Below, one piece after another: positions 1 through 62,948 of a stretch of DNA of 64,000 nucleotides. Location: contig NZ_BAKH01000001.1 of assembly GCF_000614105.1 (NCBI RefSeq), positions 1 to 64,000 of the forward strand. Reading direction: 5' to 3'. Every line of letters starts with the position of its first letter. Position 1 is the stretch's first letter. This DNA is from Prevotella micans DSM 21469 = JCM 16134. Its GTDB lineage: Bacteria; Bacteroidota; Bacteroidia; Bacteroidales; Bacteroidaceae. The notes under the pieces are model-generated. The model was not told where the DNA came from, ran no database searches, and worked only from the letters and a program-made list of their open reading frames with translations. The translations under genes and the position numbers were made by a program.

Positions 1-138
1 GGACGGAAAAAACTTTTTTCAGGCCAAAAGTTCTTCGGAGGTCGGAAAAACTTTTTTTTCAGGCCACGCAATATGCAGGGAGCAAAAAACTTTTTTTTCG
101 GGCCACGCAATGTGCAGGGGTCGAAAAAACTTTTTCCA
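1..138. repeat. Short tandem palindromic repeats, about 39-bp period, cut by window edge
   Basis: Four copies of an A-run/T-run palindrome (AAAAAAC followed by TTTTTT) have their central C at about 13, 51, 90 and 130, so the spacing is 38, 39 and 40 bp. Between copies lie related GC-richer stretches (aggccacgcaatatgcaggg and a near copy). The short plus-strand open frame that crosses this repeat (73-318) has a composition dictated by the repeat and is not believable as a gene. The layout resembles the other 41-43 bp arrays in this window, but the left end is missing, so the full size is unknown. Confidence 0.6.
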
Positions 139-7270: not shown

Positions 7271-7487
7271 CCACTCGGGCGGAACGACCGCATGTAGGGA
7301 CAGACCCCGTGTCTGTCCGAGCCCCATGCCAATTCGGTCTACCGACCGCATAACATATTTCGTCCTTTCGCGTCAGGGCTCGGACAGACACGGGGTCTGT
7401 CCCTACATGCGGGCTAATGCCCGAATTGGCAGGGGTGCGGACAGACACAGAGGCCGTCCCTACATGCGGGCTAATGCCCGTTTCGGA
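7271..7487. repeat. REPIN-like cluster of GGACAGAC hairpins (three copies)
   Basis: Three copies of a 21-bp hairpin core (GGACAGACACGGGGTCTGTCC or close variant) lie at 7298-7318 (inverted), 7382-7402 and 7439-7459. Each is followed on its own strand by CCTACATGCGGGC and a short second hairpin. The first two copies face each other across an inner segment that contains CCAATTCGGTCTACCGACCG. That inner segment recurs, reversed, inside the element at 37.3-37.5 kb. The paired inverted arrangement is that of BIME/REPIN elements. No transposase of the RAYT type is present in the window. Short open frames here are by-products of the repeat. Confidence 0.75.
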
Positions 7488-7559: not shown

Positions 7560-8287
7560 GAGCATAATCCATTGATTTCATCTCGGTACGAGCTTGCGCG
7601 AGCCTTGCCGGCGATATGTTTGCGTCGGTCTCAATATCGAAACGCGCATAAAATACTCTGGCCGGCTGTTTCCGAGGGCGTTTTATCTGAAACAATATCG
7701 TCACCGGCACTTAAAACTTATTTTTTATTCTGGCGACAGCGTCGCTATGACTTAAAATTTATTTTCTACTCTGGCGACAGCGTCGCTGACACTTAAAACT
7801 TATTTTTTGCTCTGGCGACAGCGTCGCCGACACTTAAAAATTATTTTATGTTAAGGCGACGATGTCGCCTTAACATATATTTTATTTACACTATCAGCGA
7901 CAGCGTCGCCTTAACTTATATTTCATTTTAACTGCTGGCGACATCATCGCCTTAACATAAAATAATTTTTAAGTGCTGGCGACGATATCGCCTTAACTAA
8001 TATTTTATTTTCACCATCGGCGACGATGTCGCTAAGGATATAAATATGTTTTAAATCCTAGTGACGATATCGCTGGAGCAAAAAATAAATTTTAAGTGTT
8101 AGCGACGGTATCGCTAAAGGAAAAAATAAGTTTTAAGTGCCGGCGACGATATTGTTTCAGATAAAATGCCCTCGTACACAGCCGGCCAGAGTATTTTATG
8201 CGCGTTTCGATATTGAGACCGACGCAAACATATCGCCGGCAAGGCTCGCGCAAGCTCGTACCGAGATGAAATCAATGGATTATGCTC
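7560..8287. repeat. Large inverted repeat enclosing a 41-bp-period palindrome array
   Basis: The left arm (7560-7726) and right arm (8121-8287) are 167 bp each and are reverse complements with only about four mismatches by eye. Between and partly inside the arms, palindromes of the form GGCGACnnnGTCGCC begin at 7732, 7773, 7814, 7855, 7896, 7937, 7978, 8019, 8060, 8101 and 8142. That is ten consecutive steps of exactly 41 bp. Spacers are AT-rich (cttaaaanttatttt on the left, its complement on the right), so the whole 728-bp unit is roughly one giant palindrome centred near 7924. No credible gene lies in it. The function is unknown; a transcript would fold into a long hairpin. Confidence 0.9.
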
Positions 8288-11895: not shown

Positions 11896-13539
11896 CTAAC
11901 TGCGCGAAACGGTTGTACCCGATTCGCTGAGCGACATTTCTACGAAGCGAGAATTCGGATTGGGCGATTCGGCAGTAAGCGTTTTGCGTATGCGAAGGGC
12001 GGCATCTGGATCTTTGGCTATCATATAGAGATAGCCGCCGCCACCCGCTCCGGGGAGTTTATAACCCAGACAAAGGTCGTCGACGAGCTGGGTTAGGAAA
12101 GAAACTTCAGGCGGATTGGTACCCGAGTCGAGCTTTTGATTCTGCTGCCATGTTCTTCTGACTAACTGACCTAGGGAGATAAAATTACCACGCAAGATTG
12201 TGTCGTACATATTGAGCGCGTGGATTTTCATTTCGCGTAACAGCTCCAGTTCATCGTGCTCGTTGAGGAACATCCGTCGCACAATTTCGGATAGAATAGT
12301 TTTTGCTGTTCGGGTTATTCCGGTGTAGTAAAGCAGATGACAAGGTTTGTAATCGGGATGTGTGAAAAGATTGGCGGGCATCCATCTGGTCGACGGACTT
12401 TGGTTGAGCCCAGGTTGAGTTTGGAGGAGCTTCACTCCACCAAATAGACCGCCAAACTGGTCTTGCCATCCTCCTCCGGTAGTTAGGAGTTGTTCGAGCA
12501 TAAGAGTTCGTCTACCAATTTCGTTCTTATCCCATCCCAGTTTGCAGAAGTCAGATAGTGCGCTGAGCACGGTTGCAGCTAGGATGCTGCTTGTGCCGAG
12601 TCCAGAGCCGGCCGGTATAGCCGAAAGTAGAGTTATTTCGATTCCTCCACCAAAGTGCTCGAGCTGTTGCTTTAGGCTGCCGAAATCTTCGGCGCAATAA
12701 TACGGCATGAATCCGGCTAATGCTAGAGCAGCTTTGGGGATAGAGAACGGGCTACCTACCTTATTGAACTGCGAGAGTTCGGTGTAGGTTCGCACTGTTT
12801 CGATGGCTCCGAGGTCAATGCTTCGGAGAGTTATGACGGGAGCTTCTGAGGTTTTGATATAGGTTTGAATAGGAGGTTGCCCATTAAGCTCGATTGCCAT
12901 GTTGATTACGTTCCCACCTTCAATGAGGCAGTGAGGAGGAGTGTCTGTCCATCCGCCTGCGAGGTCAATTCTAACAGGACTTCGTCCCCAAACAATTTGG
13001 TCATCGTAAACGGCTTTAACAGGAAATTGCGGGGTTGTAAGAGTGGCAGAGGTTAGAGCATCGGCTAGCAGCTCGAAGGCTCGACTTTCATATTTCTGGG
13101 CTTCTTTCCCACTGGATATTTCACTTCTAAACATAGCGTCGCCGATGCGATTCATAAGAGGAGCGTCGACAGATATTGGCACAGGCATAGGCAAATTGGA
13201 CTCTCTGAATGCTCGAGCGGCATCAGCGAGATCGAGCTGATAGAACACACTGTGTTCGTAATTCGCGGCAAGGGTCTGCCAGTTGAGTTCCCGGAATGAT
13301 TTACGTTGAGCGAAGAGTCGTTTGAGGTTGGCTCGGACTGAAATTTGCTCAGCTGAAATGTATTCGCGAGCTTTTTTCCTCCCTCGGCTCATGTATAGGT
13401 CGAGCTTTTCGAAGTTAGGGAATACAGGGAATATTGGTGCGAACTGTTCGTGTCCGGCGAAAGTATCGTTGTATTTATATTCCCGCAATGCATAGGCTTC
13501 GTCATCAATCGGAACGATATCGATACACTGTCCGGGCAC
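11896..13539 (-). CDS. fkp: Fkp C-terminal part: L-fucokinase (frameshifted from N-terminal part)
   Basis: This is the kinase half of the bifunctional L-fucokinase/GDP-L-fucose pyrophosphorylase. It phosphorylates L-fucose to fucose-1-phosphate, which the other half converts to GDP-fucose. GHMP-kinase motifs are clear: VWGRSPVRIDLAGGWTDTPPH, the phosphate loop IPAGSGLGTSSILAATVLSAL, and the C-terminal KLPGAGGGGYLYMIAKD. The same frame stays open upstream of 13539 to about 13684 and reads HFVQNSLTKIR..., continuing the homology. The two halves are therefore one gene broken near 13684-13687. The 547-residue frame as annotated begins at an internal Met (MPGQCIDIVPID). The joined protein would be about 903 residues, close to the roughly 950 of the family. 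Confidence 0.9.
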   Translation of the reverse strand: MPGQCIDIVPIDDEAYALREYKYNDTFAGHEQFAPIFPVFPNFEKLDLYMSRGRKKAREYISAEQISVRANLKRLFAQRKSFRELNWQTLAANYEHSVFYQLDLADAARAFRESNLPMPVPISVDAPLMNRIGDAMFRSEISSGKEAQKYESRAFELLADALTSATLTTPQFPVKAVYDDQIVWGRSPVRIDLAGGWTDTPPHCLIEGGNVINMAIELNGQPPIQTYIKTSEAPVITLRSIDLGAIETVRTYTELSQFNKVGSPFSIPKAALALAGFMPYYCAEDFGSLKQQLEHFGGGIEITLLSAIPAGSGLGTSSILAATVLSALSDFCKLGWDKNEIGRRTLMLEQLLTTGGGWQDQFGGLFGGVKLLQTQPGLNQSPSTRWMPANLFTHPDYKPCHLLYYTGITRTAKTILSEIVRRMFLNEHDELELLREMKIHALNMYDTILRGNFISLGQLVRRTWQQNQKLDSGTNPPEVSFLTQLVDDLCLGYKLPGAGGGGYLYMIAKDPDAALRIRKTLTAESPNPNSRFVEMSLSESGTTVSRS

Positions 13540-24029: not shown

Positions 24030-24070
24030 ACACCCAATCCGATACCTCGCCCCCTCCCAACTAGCTAAAA

Positions 24071-24460
24071 GCATAATTATATACCTTTCCAACTAATAAA
24101 ACTAAATATAAATTAAAGCATTGTCAATGCTATCGATTAAAATAAAATATTAGTCTAAGCATTATTAATGCGCATGATATAAATATAATATTATATATAG
24201 CATTATCAATGCGAATACTTAAATCAAAATATAAGTTAAGGCATTATCAATGCCGACACTCAAAATAAAATAGAAGTTAAGGCATTATTAATGCGCAGGC
24301 TATAAATAAAATAATAGTTAAAGCATTATCAATGCATCAGCTATAAATAAAATAGCAATCGAAGAATTATCAATGCCTATATATAAAATAATATTTTAGA
24401 TGACGCATTGATAATGTTAAGACTAATAATATTTTTATTCTAGAAGAATTATATAATATT
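24071..24460. repeat. 41-bp-period array of GCATT-ATC-AATGC palindromes
   Basis: Short palindromes GCATTnnnAATGC (several extended to GGCATTATCAATGCC) begin at 24118, 24159, 24200, 24241, 24282, 24323, 24364 and 24405, seven consecutive steps of exactly 41 bp. A decayed unit fits at 24446 and perhaps one near 24077. Spacers are AT-rich (ataaataaaataatagtta type) and only loosely conserved. There is no open frame of interest. The array lies between the pepC terminator and the promoter of the GLPGLI gene. Bases 24030-24070 and 24461-24555 hold nothing I recognise. Confidence 0.9.
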
Positions 24461-35835: not shown

Positions 35836-36897
35836 CTAGTGTTCGGTTATCTCATTTCGAATTTGCGTATAATCCGATGTCTTGTCAGGCAGAGTGTTAT
35901 TTTTCGATATTTCATCAGACGGGGCAGCAGAATCCGGAAGCGATTTTTCATCCGGAGATTCAACTTTTTTATCTGCAGAAATATCGTTCTCCCGTGCCTC
36001 AATAGAGGACTGGGGTTCTTCTTCTGCCGAGATATTTTCCTCCGTTATAGCCTTATTTTCTGAAGGATTACGATTATCTACCACTTTCTCACCCTCTGTG
36101 TTTTTATCGTTGGGCGAAGCATCATTCGGAGTTTGGGCGACATTTTTTTTCTTCCTTTTCCTCTTCGTGAGCACTTGTTCTTTGTAGCGTTTGATGAGAT
36201 AATTCATGCGATTGAGGAAACGGTCGAGGTCGGGGACAATGCCAAGAACGCTGATACTATTCACAATTTTAACCAGTTTAAGATAGGCCTCATCGCTCGC
36301 TCGACGGGCCAAACGACGTTCGCCCACGCGCCTACCTTGCCGCGCGTTAATTCTACTGAGCAGAAGCTCTTCGACCTTACAATTTGCCGATTTCAGGGCC
36401 TCCACATAGGCCTGCAAACCCAGCTTAGCCACCTGCGGGGCAAATCGACCCTCGCAATCTTCTATGAGCACCGTGATATTGGCGGTTTCGCGCTCTAGCT
36501 GTGCCCGCGGATTGATTCTCGACTCTTTTATGCGTTGATGAAGCTCGGTTGCGGCTTGTTTCATTTCGGGAATGGAGATTCGCAGAAAACTTCGTACGGC
36601 GGCCTTGAATCCAACGAAAAGCGAATCGCGCTCGCGGTCAACATCCTTAATATCATTGGTTGTCATGCTCTTTTTCGACAGTCGCATGCACCTTTCCTCC
36701 TCCGCCAGGGCTTTCTCGAGTTTGTCGACGGCCATTTTCACCCTATCATTAGCCAACAGCGCAGTTTCCGAACCAATGTAAGAGCACACATACTTAAAGA
36801 ATTGCTGATGCGCCCCATTGGGTATTTTCACGAGGTCTATGCCTCGGATTTCATTGAAAAGCTCATTTGTTTTCATACTATTCAGTTTCGTTTCCAT
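35836..36897 (-). CDS. DUF6261-like protein with charged C-terminal tail
   Basis: The product is 353 residues, or 346 from the second ATG at 36876. The N-terminal ELFNEIRGIDLVKIPNGAHQQFFKYV matches the pattern I associate with DUF6261, a Bacteroidales family of unknown function. Residues up to about 235 are predicted to be almost all helix. The tail of roughly 110 residues starts with a basic block (TKRKRKKK) and becomes acidic and low-complexity. There is no signal peptide or catalytic motif. The gene begins immediately beside a 42-bp-period palindrome array (36901-37297), as does the second family member at 62 kb. A nucleic-acid-binding or structural role is only inference. The family name is from memory of motifs and needs a profile search. 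Confidence 0.72.
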   Translation of the reverse strand: METKLNSMKTNELFNEIRGIDLVKIPNGAHQQFFKYVCSYIGSETALLANDRVKMAVDKLEKALAEEERCMRLSKKSMTTNDIKDVDRERDSLFVGFKAAVRSFLRISIPEMKQAATELHQRIKESRINPRAQLERETANITVLIEDCEGRFAPQVAKLGLQAYVEALKSANCKVEELLLSRINARQGRRVGERRLARRASDEAYLKLVKIVNSISVLGIVPDLDRFLNRMNYLIKRYKEQVLTKRKRKKKNVAQTPNDASPNDKNTEGEKVVDNRNPSENKAITEENISAEEEPQSSIEARENDISADKKVESPDEKSLPDSAAPSDEISKNNTLPDKTSDYTQIRNEITEH

Positions 36898-36900
36898 TAA

Positions 36901-37297
36901 AAATATTCTCCCGCAATATTAAAACAGCATTTCAATTAATTTGCAGAAGATTACGAAGATAATAAACATATATATAACATATATACGGTAACATCCGCAA
37001 AGATAAAAAATTATTTCTAATTATATATGGTAGTCTCCGCAAAAATAATTAATCATAAAAAATTATTTGCGGAATTTTCCGCAAGTATAAAACAATACTT
37101 TAATTCATATGCGGACTATTACGTAATAGTAAAATCATATTGAAAATGATTTGCGGAATAGTTCGCAGTTATAAAATTACTTTTTAATCACTTGCGGGAT
37201 TTTCCGCAGATATAAAATTATACTTAAAATTACTTGCGGAACATTCCGCAGATATAGAAATCTCTTATAATAATATTCGGATTTCTCCGCAAGTTTA
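36901..37297. repeat. 41-43-bp-period array of TTGCGGAA/TTCCGCAA palindromes beside DUF6261-like gene
   Basis: Palindromes of the form TGCGGAnnnTCCGCA (best copies ttgcggaattttccgcaa at about 37067 and ttgcggaacattccgca at about 37234) recur with GC at 36943, 36986 (decayed), 37027 (half), 37069, 37111, 37153, 37194, 37236 and 37277. Steps are 41-43 bp. Another half-unit (ctcccgcaa) lies at 36908. Spacers are AT-rich (gtataaaacaatactttaatt type). Copies near the gene are the most decayed, and those in the middle are best. The array fills the region upstream of the DUF6261-like gene on its 5' side. Confidence 0.85.
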
Positions 37298-37312: not shown

Positions 37313-37513
37313 TGCCAACTCGAGCTGAACGATTCATAATAACGACACACGCCAATTCGGGCGGAATGCCCGCATGTAGGGACAGACCCCGTGTCTGTCC
37401 GCATCCGGACACGACCGGACGAAATACGTTATGCGGTCGGTAGACCGAATTGGCAGAGAGGCGGACAGACACGGGGTCTGTCCCTACATGCGGGCATTCC
37501 GCCCGAATTAGCA
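37313..37513. repeat. REPIN-like inverted pair of GGACAGAC hairpins
   Basis: Two hairpin cores at 37380-37400 (inverted) and 37463-37483 face each other. Between them lies GGACGAAATACGTTATGCGG plus its continuation, the reverse complement of the inner segment of the 7.3-kb element with about one mismatch. The outer left flank (gaacgattcataataacgac) is also shared with the element at 43.7-43.9 kb, reversed. Bases 37514-37587 contain no further feature. Confidence 0.78.
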
Positions 37514-37587
37514 TCCGTTGTTTATTACCCCATTGGCTTCTCAGAGGCTTAAGCAGATTCTTAAATCGAACTCACGTATATATTCCA

Positions 37588-43730: not shown

Positions 43731-43926
43731 TCGGGCCTCCAGGCCGCATGTAGGGACAGACCCCGTGTCTGTCCGCCCCCAACGTCGATTCGATATATTA
43801 ACCGCAAAACAAAAGTCACGTCAAGAACAAGATGGAATCCGGACAGACACGGGGTCTGTCCCTACATGCGGGCTGGAGGCCCGAGTTGGCGCGCGTCGTG
43901 ATTATGAATTGTTCTGCCCGAGTGTC
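43731..43926. repeat. REPIN-like inverted pair of GGACAGAC hairpins downstream of maeB
   Basis: Hairpin cores at 43754-43774 (inverted) and 43841-43861 face each other across a unique 66-bp inner sequence. Each outer side carries the ATGCGGGC plus gene-family-specific second hairpin (ctggaggcccg). The right outer flank (gattatgaattgttctgcccg) matches, reversed, the left flank of the 37.3-kb element. A short plus-strand frame here (43765-43959) is a by-product. Bases 43927-44036 show no recognisable feature. Confidence 0.78.
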
Positions 43927-44036
43927 ATACGTGTCGCTCACCGTTTGTTCAAAGATTAAGAGGTTTCTTCTCAGGAAATCATGTAATTGAGAGCTATATG
44001 ACCGTGCGCGAGTGGTATTATCCGGAATTTACCGAC

Positions 44037-44335
44037 GAATCACACAAAGAACTTACAGAGAGTGTGTGGCAGAGACTATTTCACACAAAGAGTTTAAAGA
44101 GAGTGTGTGTCAGAGACTATTTCACACAAAGAGTTTAAAAAGAGTATGTGACAGAGACTATTTCACACAAAGAGTTTAAAGAGACTGTGTGACAGAGACT
44201 ATTTCACACAAAGAGTTTACAGAGACTGTGTAAAATAGCCTATTTCACACAAAGAGTTTACAGAGACTGTGTGGCAGAGACTATTTCACACAAAGAGTTT
44301 ACAGAGACTGTGTGACAGAGACTATTTCGAAGACT
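44037..44335. repeat. 41-bp-period tandem array with TCACACA/TGTGTGA half-sites
   Basis: The unit is about CACACAAAGAGTTTACAGAG plus ACTGTGTGACAGAGACTATTT. Copies of CACACAAAG begin at 44041, 44082, 44123, 44164, 44205, 44246 and 44287: six consecutive steps of exactly 41 bp. Unlike the other arrays, the whole unit is well conserved, not only the palindrome, so this array looks young. The arms TCACACA and TGTGTGA are separated by 16 bases, and ACAGAGACT also occurs as a direct repeat. It lies between the maeB-side REPIN-like element and ruvA. Bases 44336-44563 are unique sequence with a minus-strand open frame (44374-44625) that I do not trust. Confidence 0.93.
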
Positions 44336-44563
44336 CTCGCCTGTAGATACCGGTCGAAACGGGACATTTTTCCTCATTTCATCAACGCATCGCCGGCGGC
44401 GCAGTGGAATTTCGGACAAATTTTCATTCCCTCCCAGTCGAAAAGCATGTCGCCCGGGCGAATTTGGGGATAAAATGAGGTGCCATACAATAAGATGAGG
44501 GTTCGAACGTTTAGGAATGCGGAAATTAAAAAAGATTCGGCCAGTAAACTGGCATCAACAGTC

Positions 44564-61389: not shown

Positions 61390-61885
61390 AGTCGATAACC
61401 ATATGTATGTTTTCTAATCGAAGATAGATACGAACATAAAACATATATATGGTTTAATTATAAAAAATATATTTGCTACTAAACATACATGTGTTTATTA
61501 ATCGACGAGACTCTTGAAACGATAAACACACATGAGTTTTTAACCAATGAGTATCTTTAATTATAAAACATACGTATGTTTTACAATCAAAGAGACTCTA
61601 TAGATACTAAACAAAGGTATGATTTAATTCAAATAGACTCTGCGATTATAAAACATACATATGTTTTAAGATTCAAGAGCCTCTTTGATTATAAAACATA
61701 CATGCGATTTAACATTACAGAGACTCTTTGAACTAAAACACATGTTTGTTTTGTATTCAAAGAGCCTCTGTAGTCAAAAACATATGTATGTTTTTATATC
61801 AAGTAGTTTATATGAGTTAAAACACACATTAGTTTTATCATCAATAATTTATTCCAAATTAAAAACATACATCAGAATACCATTT
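61390..61885. repeat. 42-43-bp-period double-palindrome array upstream of second DUF6261-like gene
   Basis: The unit carries two palindromes: AAAACATACATATGTTTT-like and TCAAAGAGnCTCTTTGA-like. AAAC of the first begins at 61438, 61481, 61524, 61566, 61609, 61651, 61694, 61736, 61778, 61820 and 61863 (a decayed one near 61396). Steps are 42 or 43 bp, mean about 42.5. The best copies are in the middle (61566-61778) and both ends are decayed. No credible gene lies here; a plus-strand open frame at 61685-61894 consists of the repeat. The stretch 61886-61977 is AT-rich and unremarkable. Confidence 0.9.
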
Positions 61886-62075: not shown

Positions 62076-62861
62076 ATGAAGCCGATAAAAAAAATCGAAG
62101 AGACTCGTAGTAACCGACTAACGCTCGGACTACATGCCGACATGCAATCACGACTCTATGCATTAATATCTAAAATGCCTCCAGAAAAAATTCTACTTGA
62201 AGCTGACGACCTTATTGCATGGAAAAAGGTTATAGATATTGAACAAGACCTTGCACGTGTTGTTTCTGATTCGGAAACAACTATCAGATTGAGAAAGAAA
62301 CATTATGAGAGAGGAAAAGTAATTACTTCTTTATTCTCTGAAATAAGGAGTGCAAGACTTTCTCCTATAAAAGAAAGAGCTGAAGCAGGTCAAAGATTAT
62401 TCCCGATAGTTAAAGCATATAAAGGTTTACAATATGAGAATATCTCCGAGCAGACTTCGCATATCGATGGATTGGTTGTAGACCTAATGAAGCCTGAACC
62501 ATTTAGCGATGCGTCGACTATAGGAGTAAATACACATATAGTAATGCTTGAGCATCTAAATCAAGAATTCAAAACAATTCGTGTTGAGCGTGCTAACACC
62601 ATTGCATCAGACAATTTGCCGAATAGTAAGACTATTCGTAAGCAAGCCGATGATTTCACCAATTCTATTCTTACTCACATTGAAACAGCATATATTGTTG
62701 CAAGTGATGCAGACAGGAATATTATATCAACTTTAATTGATAATATAAATCAAGCTATTTACGAGACTGCAACTATATATAAACAAGGGGCCAGTCAGCG
62801 TAAAAATGCGAGAGATAAAAAGAAAGAAGAGGAGAAAAAGAAAGGGTGGGAAAAAGAATGA
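62076..62861 (+). CDS. DUF6261-like protein (3' tail frameshifted)
   Basis: The product is 261 residues from the ATG at 62076 (MKPIKKIEETRSNRLTLGLHADMQSRLYALI); a TTG two codons upstream is less likely. The body is predicted helical with charged heptad-like stretches (YERGKVITSLFSEIRSARLSPIKERAEAGQRLFPIVKAYKG). The N-terminal R-x-L-x-L-x-LHADMQSRLY resembles the IPNGAHQQF region of the first DUF6261-like protein. It ends in KKKEEEKKKGWEKE. Removing one A from the run of five at 62851-62855 extends the tail to GWEKNEKDNKDTDPDKTPKPG and on to a stop at 62940 (about 287 residues). Like the other member it has a charged low-complexity tail and an upstream repeat array. Function unknown; the family name needs a profile search. 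Confidence 0.68.
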   Translation: MKPIKKIEETRSNRLTLGLHADMQSRLYALISKMPPEKILLEADDLIAWKKVIDIEQDLARVVSDSETTIRLRKKHYERGKVITSLFSEIRSARLSPIKERAEAGQRLFPIVKAYKGLQYENISEQTSHIDGLVVDLMKPEPFSDASTIGVNTHIVMLEHLNQEFKTIRVERANTIASDNLPNSKTIRKQADDFTNSILTHIETAYIVASDADRNIISTLIDNINQAIYETATIYKQGASQRKNARDKKKEEEKKKGWEKE

Positions 62862-62948
62862 GAAAGATAATAAAGATACCGACCCTGATAAAACTCCTAA
62901 GCCTGGAAGAGAAGAAGACCCGGGAGAAGACAAAGCTTAAAAATTCAA

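Follow-up and report, generated by a model that had tools for sequence, protein, structure and literature searches.

In the REPIN/RAYT systems, dispersed palindromic repeats are tied to one gene family, and copies are found away from the gene. A tandem arrangement is seen in parS-F (sopC), which the available part of its report describes as twelve 43-bp tandem repeats that contain ten 16-bp inverted repeats, the sites to which ParB-F/SopB binds (PMC6238139). In P. gingivalis, the available passages on BrickBuilt describe an intergenic minisatellite array that lies within an element resembling miniature inverted-repeat transposable elements (MITEs), has promoter activity and is built from a 23-nt unit (PMC4596501). 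The present work deals with two genes of the protein family DUF6261 (PF19775), and the palindrome arrays beside them, in the first 64,000 nucleotides of contig NZ_BAKH01000001.1 of Prevotella micans DSM 21469 = JCM 16134 (assembly GCF_000614105.1), a stretch hereafter called the window. An earlier note on this DNA had remarked that each gene lies next to an array with a palindrome of its own, and had suggested that each protein may recognise, maintain or be expressed from its array. The observation is confirmed, and the interpretation is supported and widened to private protein–array pairs distributed over the order Bacteroidales. With a probability of about 0.7, DUF6261 proteins are sequence-specific binders of double-stranded DNA whose cognate sites are arrays of 41/42-bp period.

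The first gene encodes a protein of 353 residues (P0001) and abuts its array on the 5′ side (Table 1). Its match to PF19775 (E 3.5e-41, 141 bits against a curated cut-off of 27) covers residues 80–232, and a charged, disordered tail begins at about residue 254. Tandem Repeats Finder (TRF) detects 42-bp-period arrays at 36956–37057 and 37059–37261. The exact palindrome TTGCGGAAnnTTCCGCAA occurs in this array as a single copy (37067–37084); copies at 37192 and 37234 carry two mismatches and one, respectively, and the remaining units are more divergent. The second gene, near 62 kb, repeats this arrangement with a different palindrome, its 42-bp-period array being an alternation of AAACATAnnTATGTTT (AAACATA..TATGTTT) with AGAGaCTCT. 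No similarity between the two proteins is found by BLASTP, and yet the second protein (P0002) also matches PF19775 (E 4.4e-30, 105 bits, same cut-off), so that both belong to DUF6261 and not to unrelated families. They are the only two such genes in the window, as had been stated; a third lies at 95 kb on the same contig.

The association extends through the genome. PF19775 matches 33 times in the assembly (2.42 Mb, 107 contigs); as one gene accounts for two of these matches, the number of genes is 32, and contig C57 begins with a further fragment. All 28 genes with enough upstream sequence have a best upstream lag of 41–43 bp or about twice that, 27 of them by lag score (lowest 0.57, no threshold applied) together with the gene on C68; in the other four, the upstream side is cut by contig ends. 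Each of these arrays carries its own palindrome, and random 800-bp windows of the same genome contain an array in only 13 of 540 cases.

Across the order, PF19775 is found in 46 of 393 sampled genomes, that of P. micans included, in gut and oral genera among which are Prevotella, Segatella, Hoylesella, Tannerella and Parabacteroides. Only six of 39 other near relatives are positive, with one to three copies each, so that the 32 copies represent a lineage-specific expansion. Outside the P. micans genome, an array (score 0.55 or more) precedes the gene at 110 of 145 non-duplicate loci with at least 300 bp of upstream sequence, and at 129 the best lag is 40–43 bp whatever the score. Downstream flanks give an array in one of 71 cases, or six at any score. 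Subsets that overlap this pool and contain a few duplicates give similar pictures: 24/28 for one best locus per genome (28 of the 45 other positive genomes), 18/24 for a family search, 12/13 tested of 14 named genomes, and 56/78 for loci drawn from the 393-genome survey regardless of arrays. The enrichment of arrays near DUF6261 genes, which the earlier note had proposed as a check, is thus present in the P. micans genome and elsewhere, against random windows and downstream flanks alike.

The number of arrays also varies with the presence of the family. In evenly spaced 20-kb samples amounting to 400 kb per genome, the DUF6261-rich genome G218 (nine DUF6261 matches among nine scored of 43 candidates) contains 24 arrays, four linked and 20 orphan, and all four of its sampled DUF6261 open reading frames (ORFs) are array-linked. 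The family-free genomes G350 and G016 contain none and two. A passive origin, in which slippage produces arrays near the promoters of duplicated genes and no partner protein is involved, would account for the arrays common to close paralogues and for the fast turnover of array sequence. This hitch-hiking explanation is disfavoured, and hardly credible, because the period is 40–43 bp in 110 of 110 upstream arrays despite their differing sequences (62 at 41 bp, 45 at 42 bp) and because arrays are nearly absent from the samples of the two family-free genomes.

The anatomy of the arrays suggests how they might be used. The unit of 41 or 42 bp corresponds to about four helical turns and contains one main palindrome, with arms of 5–8 bp and a spacer of about 2–4 bp. 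An array typically holds about 4–12 palindromes; a second palindrome stands between the main ones in several arrays, and whole units repeat at 60–97% identity. Palindromes placed at four helical turns would bring the bound protein units onto one face of the DNA, where they could touch, and each binding unit would probably be a symmetric dimer. The gene-proximal end of the array lies at a median of 87 bp from the start codon (124 loci). Between −31 and −90, the Bacteroidota promoter element TAnnTTTG is enriched, with 25 observed against 4.8 expected (150 loci). Its 25 sites, distributed over 24 loci, lie on the gene side of the array in 15 cases, inside it in one and beyond it in none, the other nine being at loci without an array mapped at the setting used. 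A protein bound at the cis array would sit immediately upstream of its own promoter and should therefore autoregulate its gene. The motif is in excess once more at −391 to −420, with 11 sites against 2.1 expected, each of them at a different locus.

Promoter position and arm sequence also bear on an RNA-based alternative, in which transcripts of the arrays would form chains of hairpins and be bound by DUF6261, as a leader or a small RNA. Palindromes with spacers of about 3 nt could indeed form hairpins, and the predicted protein fold has a weak similarity to four-helix bundles of the S23/Avd type, one of which (8ube_D, Z 8.6) belongs to a ribonucleoprotein. The alternative is nevertheless improbable. 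Arm mismatches on the sense strand of 30 clear arrays comprise 50 A.C and 32 G.T, and this lack of an excess of G.U-compatible pairs speaks against selection for RNA hairpins. Where the promoter element is seen with a mapped array, it stands between array and gene in 15 of 16 cases, and a spacing in helical turns has no reason in RNA. Neither mismatch type nor promoter position therefore supports it, and this candidate was rejected.

Beyond what the earlier note had pictured, the window holds three 41-bp arrays with no adjoining DUF6261 gene. A scan of 771 kb of the genome (40 stretches plus the window, 4 kb being counted twice) gave 58 tandem arrays with periods between 25 and 74 bp, of which 48 have a period of 41 or 42 bp, and one mononucleotide shuffle of the same sequence gave none. 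Seventeen of these arrays are orphans. For fourteen of them, blastn (E 1e-5 or better) aligns the orphan itself with a DUF6261-linked array, AT-rich spacer forming part of some alignments. One more is connected to a linked array solely by way of a second orphan, and the remaining two match each other and nothing else. A tblastn search at the 17 orphans found no DUF6261 remnant except a 51-bp fragment at L068, so that passive hitch-hiking explains these orphans poorly. The palindrome of the gene at L001, GCAACnnnGTTGC, illustrates this dispersal: the whole genome contains 45 sites against two for the reversed pattern, and 40 of the 45 cluster in six places, spaced there by 41 bp or multiples of it; a DUF6261 gene adjoins one of these places. 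The idea that each protein has 'its array' hence holds as far as a gene-adjacent array exists, and falls short in that there are often several arrays, with orphan copies of the same palindrome scattered in the genome. The latter would be bound in trans by the same protein.

Dispersed copies are also what a selfish repeat system of the REPIN/RAYT kind would leave, with DUF6261 helping the array to multiply or move and the orphans being non-autonomous copies. This is the main rival to DNA binding at cognate arrays. The distribution of the family is patchy and burst-like (32 genes here against one to three copies in the positive relatives), orphans exceed linked arrays in G218 by 20 to 4, and unrelated housekeeping genes make up most of the orphans' neighbours. 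The same long inverted repeats occur at array-like spacing at three loci of the genome, one in the window (C107) and two beyond it (C80:5922-6735 and C73:11119-11870). At two of the three (C107 and C73) an array is seen between the arms, in both cases an orphan of one GTCGCC-type, MITE-like family. Spread by a mobile element may accordingly explain some orphans. As a general account, selfish copying is judged unlikely: inverted-repeat borders are found at only two of the 17 orphans, 35 aligned DUF6261 members show no recurrent transposase, nuclease or helicase family (Pfam, PHROGs and PADLOC), and binding geometry accounts better than copying for a strict 41/42-bp period across the order.

If DUF6261 proteins bind their arrays, the palindrome should follow the protein, and at close range it does. 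Array similarity of at least 30 bits is found in six of eight pairs of proteins at 70% identity or more, two of 12 at 50–70%, four of 45 at 40–50%, and 11 of 1475 below 40%. Five orthologues, from Prevotella illustrans, Hoylesella pleuritidis, Prevotella oral taxon 376, Segatella baroniae and Segatella buccae, have TGCCGAggTTCGGCA-type palindromes in common, some units ending in GGAA. In P. illustrans and S. baroniae, a second paralogue is accompanied by the palindrome TTGCaCAACTTGAGCAA, the intervening sequence remaining much the same. The protein at L005 of the P. micans genome and that at L079 of another species share 47% body identity, and both have TTCCCAAnnTTGGGAA. Such conservation of palindrome type with orthologues across genera is a further argument against passive hitch-hiking. 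The proposal that palindromes correlate with protein clade is thus borne out at close range, among cross-genus orthologues and in chimeric segments; it fails in the overall rank correlation.

Natural chimeras and near-identical pairs point to particular parts of the protein. In S. baroniae L114, residues 162–192 are identical to group II (74% to group I) and residues 219–235 are identical to group I (76–82% to group II); the N-terminus is closer to group I, and the palindrome is of the group-I type. In Tannerella, L080 and L117 are about 95% identical and have unrelated palindromes. Their differences lie in residues 2–12, at one position near 64, at four positions in the loop equivalent to 127–131 (KIDPR to GIKTQ) and in the last two residues; the case rests on few copies because L117 has only about 2.5 array units at the contig end of a metagenome-assembled genome. 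Two proteins of one genome, L137 and L146, have cores that are about 90% identical and differ in the N-terminal 17 residues and the tail, and their arrays share the spacer and not the palindrome. The distal unit of the L137 array looks like a relic of L146.

By eye, short N-terminal motifs accompany palindrome classes even between distant proteins: ISL[EP]R with GAAAC..GTTTC (L006, L117, L127), [IF]DLx[KR] with CGGAA..TTCCG (P0001, L030, L105), DxGH with GAGCG..CGCTC (L002, L119), and IDLHS with CCGA..TCGG (group I, L014). As segment 20–24 had first been picked by eye, all 250 five-residue windows were scanned. Palindrome half-site profiles replaced the Mantel test, because most arrays cannot be aligned once the identity of their proteins falls below about 50%. 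With 82 non-redundant loci, the top windows fall in residues 127–134 (window 130–134, family-wise p 0.02), and windows 18–24 reach pointwise p values of 0.001–0.0025. After body identity is regressed out, both segments keep pointwise p values of 0.001–0.003 (joint p 0.001), and in a stricter set of 62 loci the joint p for the two segments is 0.002. The permutations behind these values are not phylogeny-aware, and a first large segment test (p 2e-4) included redundant orthologues and is not to be relied on. Natural chimeras point to residues 18–24 and loop 127–134 as possible specificity determinants, and it is encouraging that these segments also changed in the Tannerella pair; the statistics are no more than suggestive. 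In such a scheme, the helical core would be shared and the two segments would read the palindrome. Protein and palindrome changing together would allow one genome to hold dozens of orthogonal pairs.

All 35 aligned members match DUF6261 in Pfam, and conserved polar residues are R90, R182, R198, N172, N232, D87 and D91. The AlphaFold2 (AF2) model is an all-helical bundle, in which 208 residues have a predicted local distance difference test (pLDDT) value of at least 90, and ends in a charged tail that is disordered. Foldseek with this model gave zero matches at E ≤ 0.001. VIA-align returned bundles only (Z up to 10), and the absence of ParB-like or helix-turn-helix folds from its list proves nothing. 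The likeness to S23/IVS and Avd covers residues ~75–188 at Z 8.4–8.8; de novo bundles (up to 9.9) and LemA and McpS (9.2) score higher, so that it may reflect a mere common arrangement, and no sequence match of S23/Avd to DUF6261 was found. A defence or phage family was considered and rejected, PADLOC and PHROGs matches being found in single members only of the 35.

Several findings weigh against specific binding or against the proposed code. The model is a plain helical bundle with no recognised DNA-binding fold. At the threshold used, 35 of the 145 loci elsewhere have no array; G016 has two arrays and no detectable DUF6261; and TAnnTTTG is seen in only 24 of 150 loci. The rank (Mantel) correlation between array and protein similarity over all pairs, compared on the same strand, is nil, which is attributed to the fast turnover of arrays. 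As for the code, L143 has ISLERM and lacks the GAAAC..GTTTC palindrome. With 49 non-redundant loci, window 19–23 ranks first at a non-significant family-wise p of 0.14. With 82 loci, the N-terminal windows by themselves are without family-wise significance, windows 155–161 score as well (pointwise p 0.003–0.0045), and the family-wise p climbs to 0.07 once body identity is regressed out. In the 62-locus set, windows 155–161 lead at a family-wise p of 0.10. Finally, as orphan neighbours are mostly unrelated, no regulon purpose is visible.

DUF6261 arrays can be compared with several described systems. They resemble SopB/sopC, as far as the latter is described in the available text, in that their 41/42-bp units contain inverted repeats of about the same length and lie next to the gene for the presumed binding protein (PMC6238139). 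They differ in that none of the 35 members gives a ParB/SopB-type Pfam match, ParA is absent among the ten downstream neighbours scanned, and one genome has dozens of pairs with different palindromes. With REPIN/RAYT they share dispersed palindromic copies (17 orphans in 771 kb here, 20 in 400 kb of G218), and they differ by the lack of a transposase family match among the 35 members and by long phased arrays with many private sequences per genome. Like BrickBuilt, the nearest repeat to come out of the literature search, they are tandem-repeat arrays of Bacteroidales; the BrickBuilt unit is 23 nt and not 41/42 bp, the stem 'palindrom' is absent from its text, and the passages name no partner protein family (PMC4596501). 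Clustered regularly interspaced short palindromic repeats (CRISPR) are likewise palindromic and regularly spaced, whereas in DUF6261 arrays the spacers are themselves repeated and the adjoining genes belong to a family other than Cas. No description of the association between DUF6261 and palindrome arrays was found in the open-access literature, as judged from titles and the openings of abstracts, and the sole paper found to name DUF6261 does so, in its available part, in a mutation table for Streptococcus oralis.

Association, fixed period, private palindromes, similar orphans, cross-genus conservation of palindromes and chimera switching are shown by computation. Together they suggest an undescribed set of private pairs of DNA-binding protein and target array in gut and mouth Bacteroidales. 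A broader picture, of a bacterial 'satellite DNA' in which up to dozens of orthogonal pairs of helical-bundle protein and phased palindromes coexist with satellites in trans and a short readable recognition code, is tentative, its chances being put slightly short of even. The purpose may be a partition-like or silencing nucleoprotein complex, or else selfish spread; an array-bound complex like that of SopB/sopC is preferred.

Table 1. Positions of DUF6261 genes, arrays and associated features in the 64,000-nt window
Feature	Coordinates	Strand	Basis or remark
Left arm of the 147-bp, 97% inverted repeat bracketing the GGCGACnnnGTCGCC orphan array	7560..7706	plus	
Orphan 41-bp array, palindrome GGCGACnnnGTCGCC	7645..8203	none	resembles array of DUF6261 gene L013, contig C98
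Right arm of the 147-bp, 97% inverted repeat bracketing the GGCGACnnnGTCGCC orphan array	8141..8287	minus	
Orphan 41-bp array, palindrome GCATTnnnAATGC	24047..24451	none	resembles array of DUF6261 gene L018, contig C95
First DUF6261 gene, 353 aa	35836..36897	minus	ORF and PF19775 profile match
Codons of residues 127–134, loop between helices 110–126 and 134–149; second proposed specificity segment	36496..36519	minus	inference
Codons of residues 18–24 (R-G-I-D-L-V-K); proposed part of palindrome-recognition surface	36826..36846	minus	inference
Array of TTGCGGAAnnTTCCGCAA-type palindromes, 42-bp period, 5′ of first gene	36901..37297	none	TRF and by eye; units by eye from ~36901 to 37297
Orphan 41-bp array, TCACACA..TGTGTGA	43981..44381	none	sole match another orphan, L052:16328
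42-bp-period array 5′ of second gene	61481..61880	none	TRF 61481–61802; weaker units beyond by eye
Second DUF6261 gene	62076..62861	plus	ATG 62076; in-frame TTG 62070

Several further features of genes and arrays were observed. The second window gene ends early, and the usual C-terminal tail of the family (DKTPKPGREEDPGEDKA) continues just downstream in another frame (window 62800–62940); this looks like a frameshift close to the end of the gene, unless it is an assembly error. Other copies that look broken are L013, which has no in-frame N-terminus (a suspected frameshift), L021, which has no N-terminal part, and the gene on C80 (L030), split over two frames. A near-identical tail, KP[GD]REEDPGED plus two residues, ends 17 of 30 DUF6261 proteins of the genome (L001–L030), mostly after a K/P/D-rich repeat and on cores that are often only 20–50% identical; it is absent from the nine relatives compared. 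The ends of contigs C36, C43, C53, C64 and C100 fall within or near the upstream side of DUF6261 genes. Short-read assemblies therefore seem to break at the arrays, and the numbers of arrays counted are probably too low. Three tandem arrays of period 44 (L047:13955, L053:14823 and L064:14339) possibly belong to another repeat family. An inverted-repeat element of ~160 bp (GGACAGACCCCGTGTCTGTCC...) is scattered in the genome, with window copies at 7275–7431, 37351–37520 and 43744–43890, and several copies adjoin distal array ends, for example those of the P0001 array, L031 and L048.

As to neighbouring genes, ten downstream ORFs taken from 10 of the 28 order-level loci show no recurring family, four having no family at all and one a weak one only. 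Of twenty genes flanking window arrays or orphans, two encode a C1-type peptidase and the others are all different. All-against-all blastp of the neighbours of 39 arrays gave three weak groups, including the C1-type peptidase pair. The two 41-bp palindrome arrays of G016 (L242:7061-7232 and 13165-13488) lie inside one gene cluster, presumably of a lipid/aryl-polyene-like type, and PADLOC on five of its proteins gave one match, of an oxidoreductase to a desaturase model. A plasmid query returned two plasmid records of Parabacteroides distasonis, the other loci being genome contigs and one faecal scaffold. The latter (L109, MT839608.1), a 4.2-kb unannotated 'Bacteriophage sp.' record with a DUF6261 gene and a TTGATTacAATCAA array, is probably a bacterial fragment.

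With these pairs, a family of uncharacterised function gains a testable one, array-specific DNA binding, and an abundant class of intergenic tandem repeats is explained. Dozens of orthogonal protein–site pairs per cell would form a natural laboratory for changes in DNA recognition and might supply orthogonal locus tags or repressors. The recognition code, if true, would be usable for predicting or designing new pairs. If the arrays act like centromeres or silencers, they would add a new layer of chromosome organisation in these bacteria.

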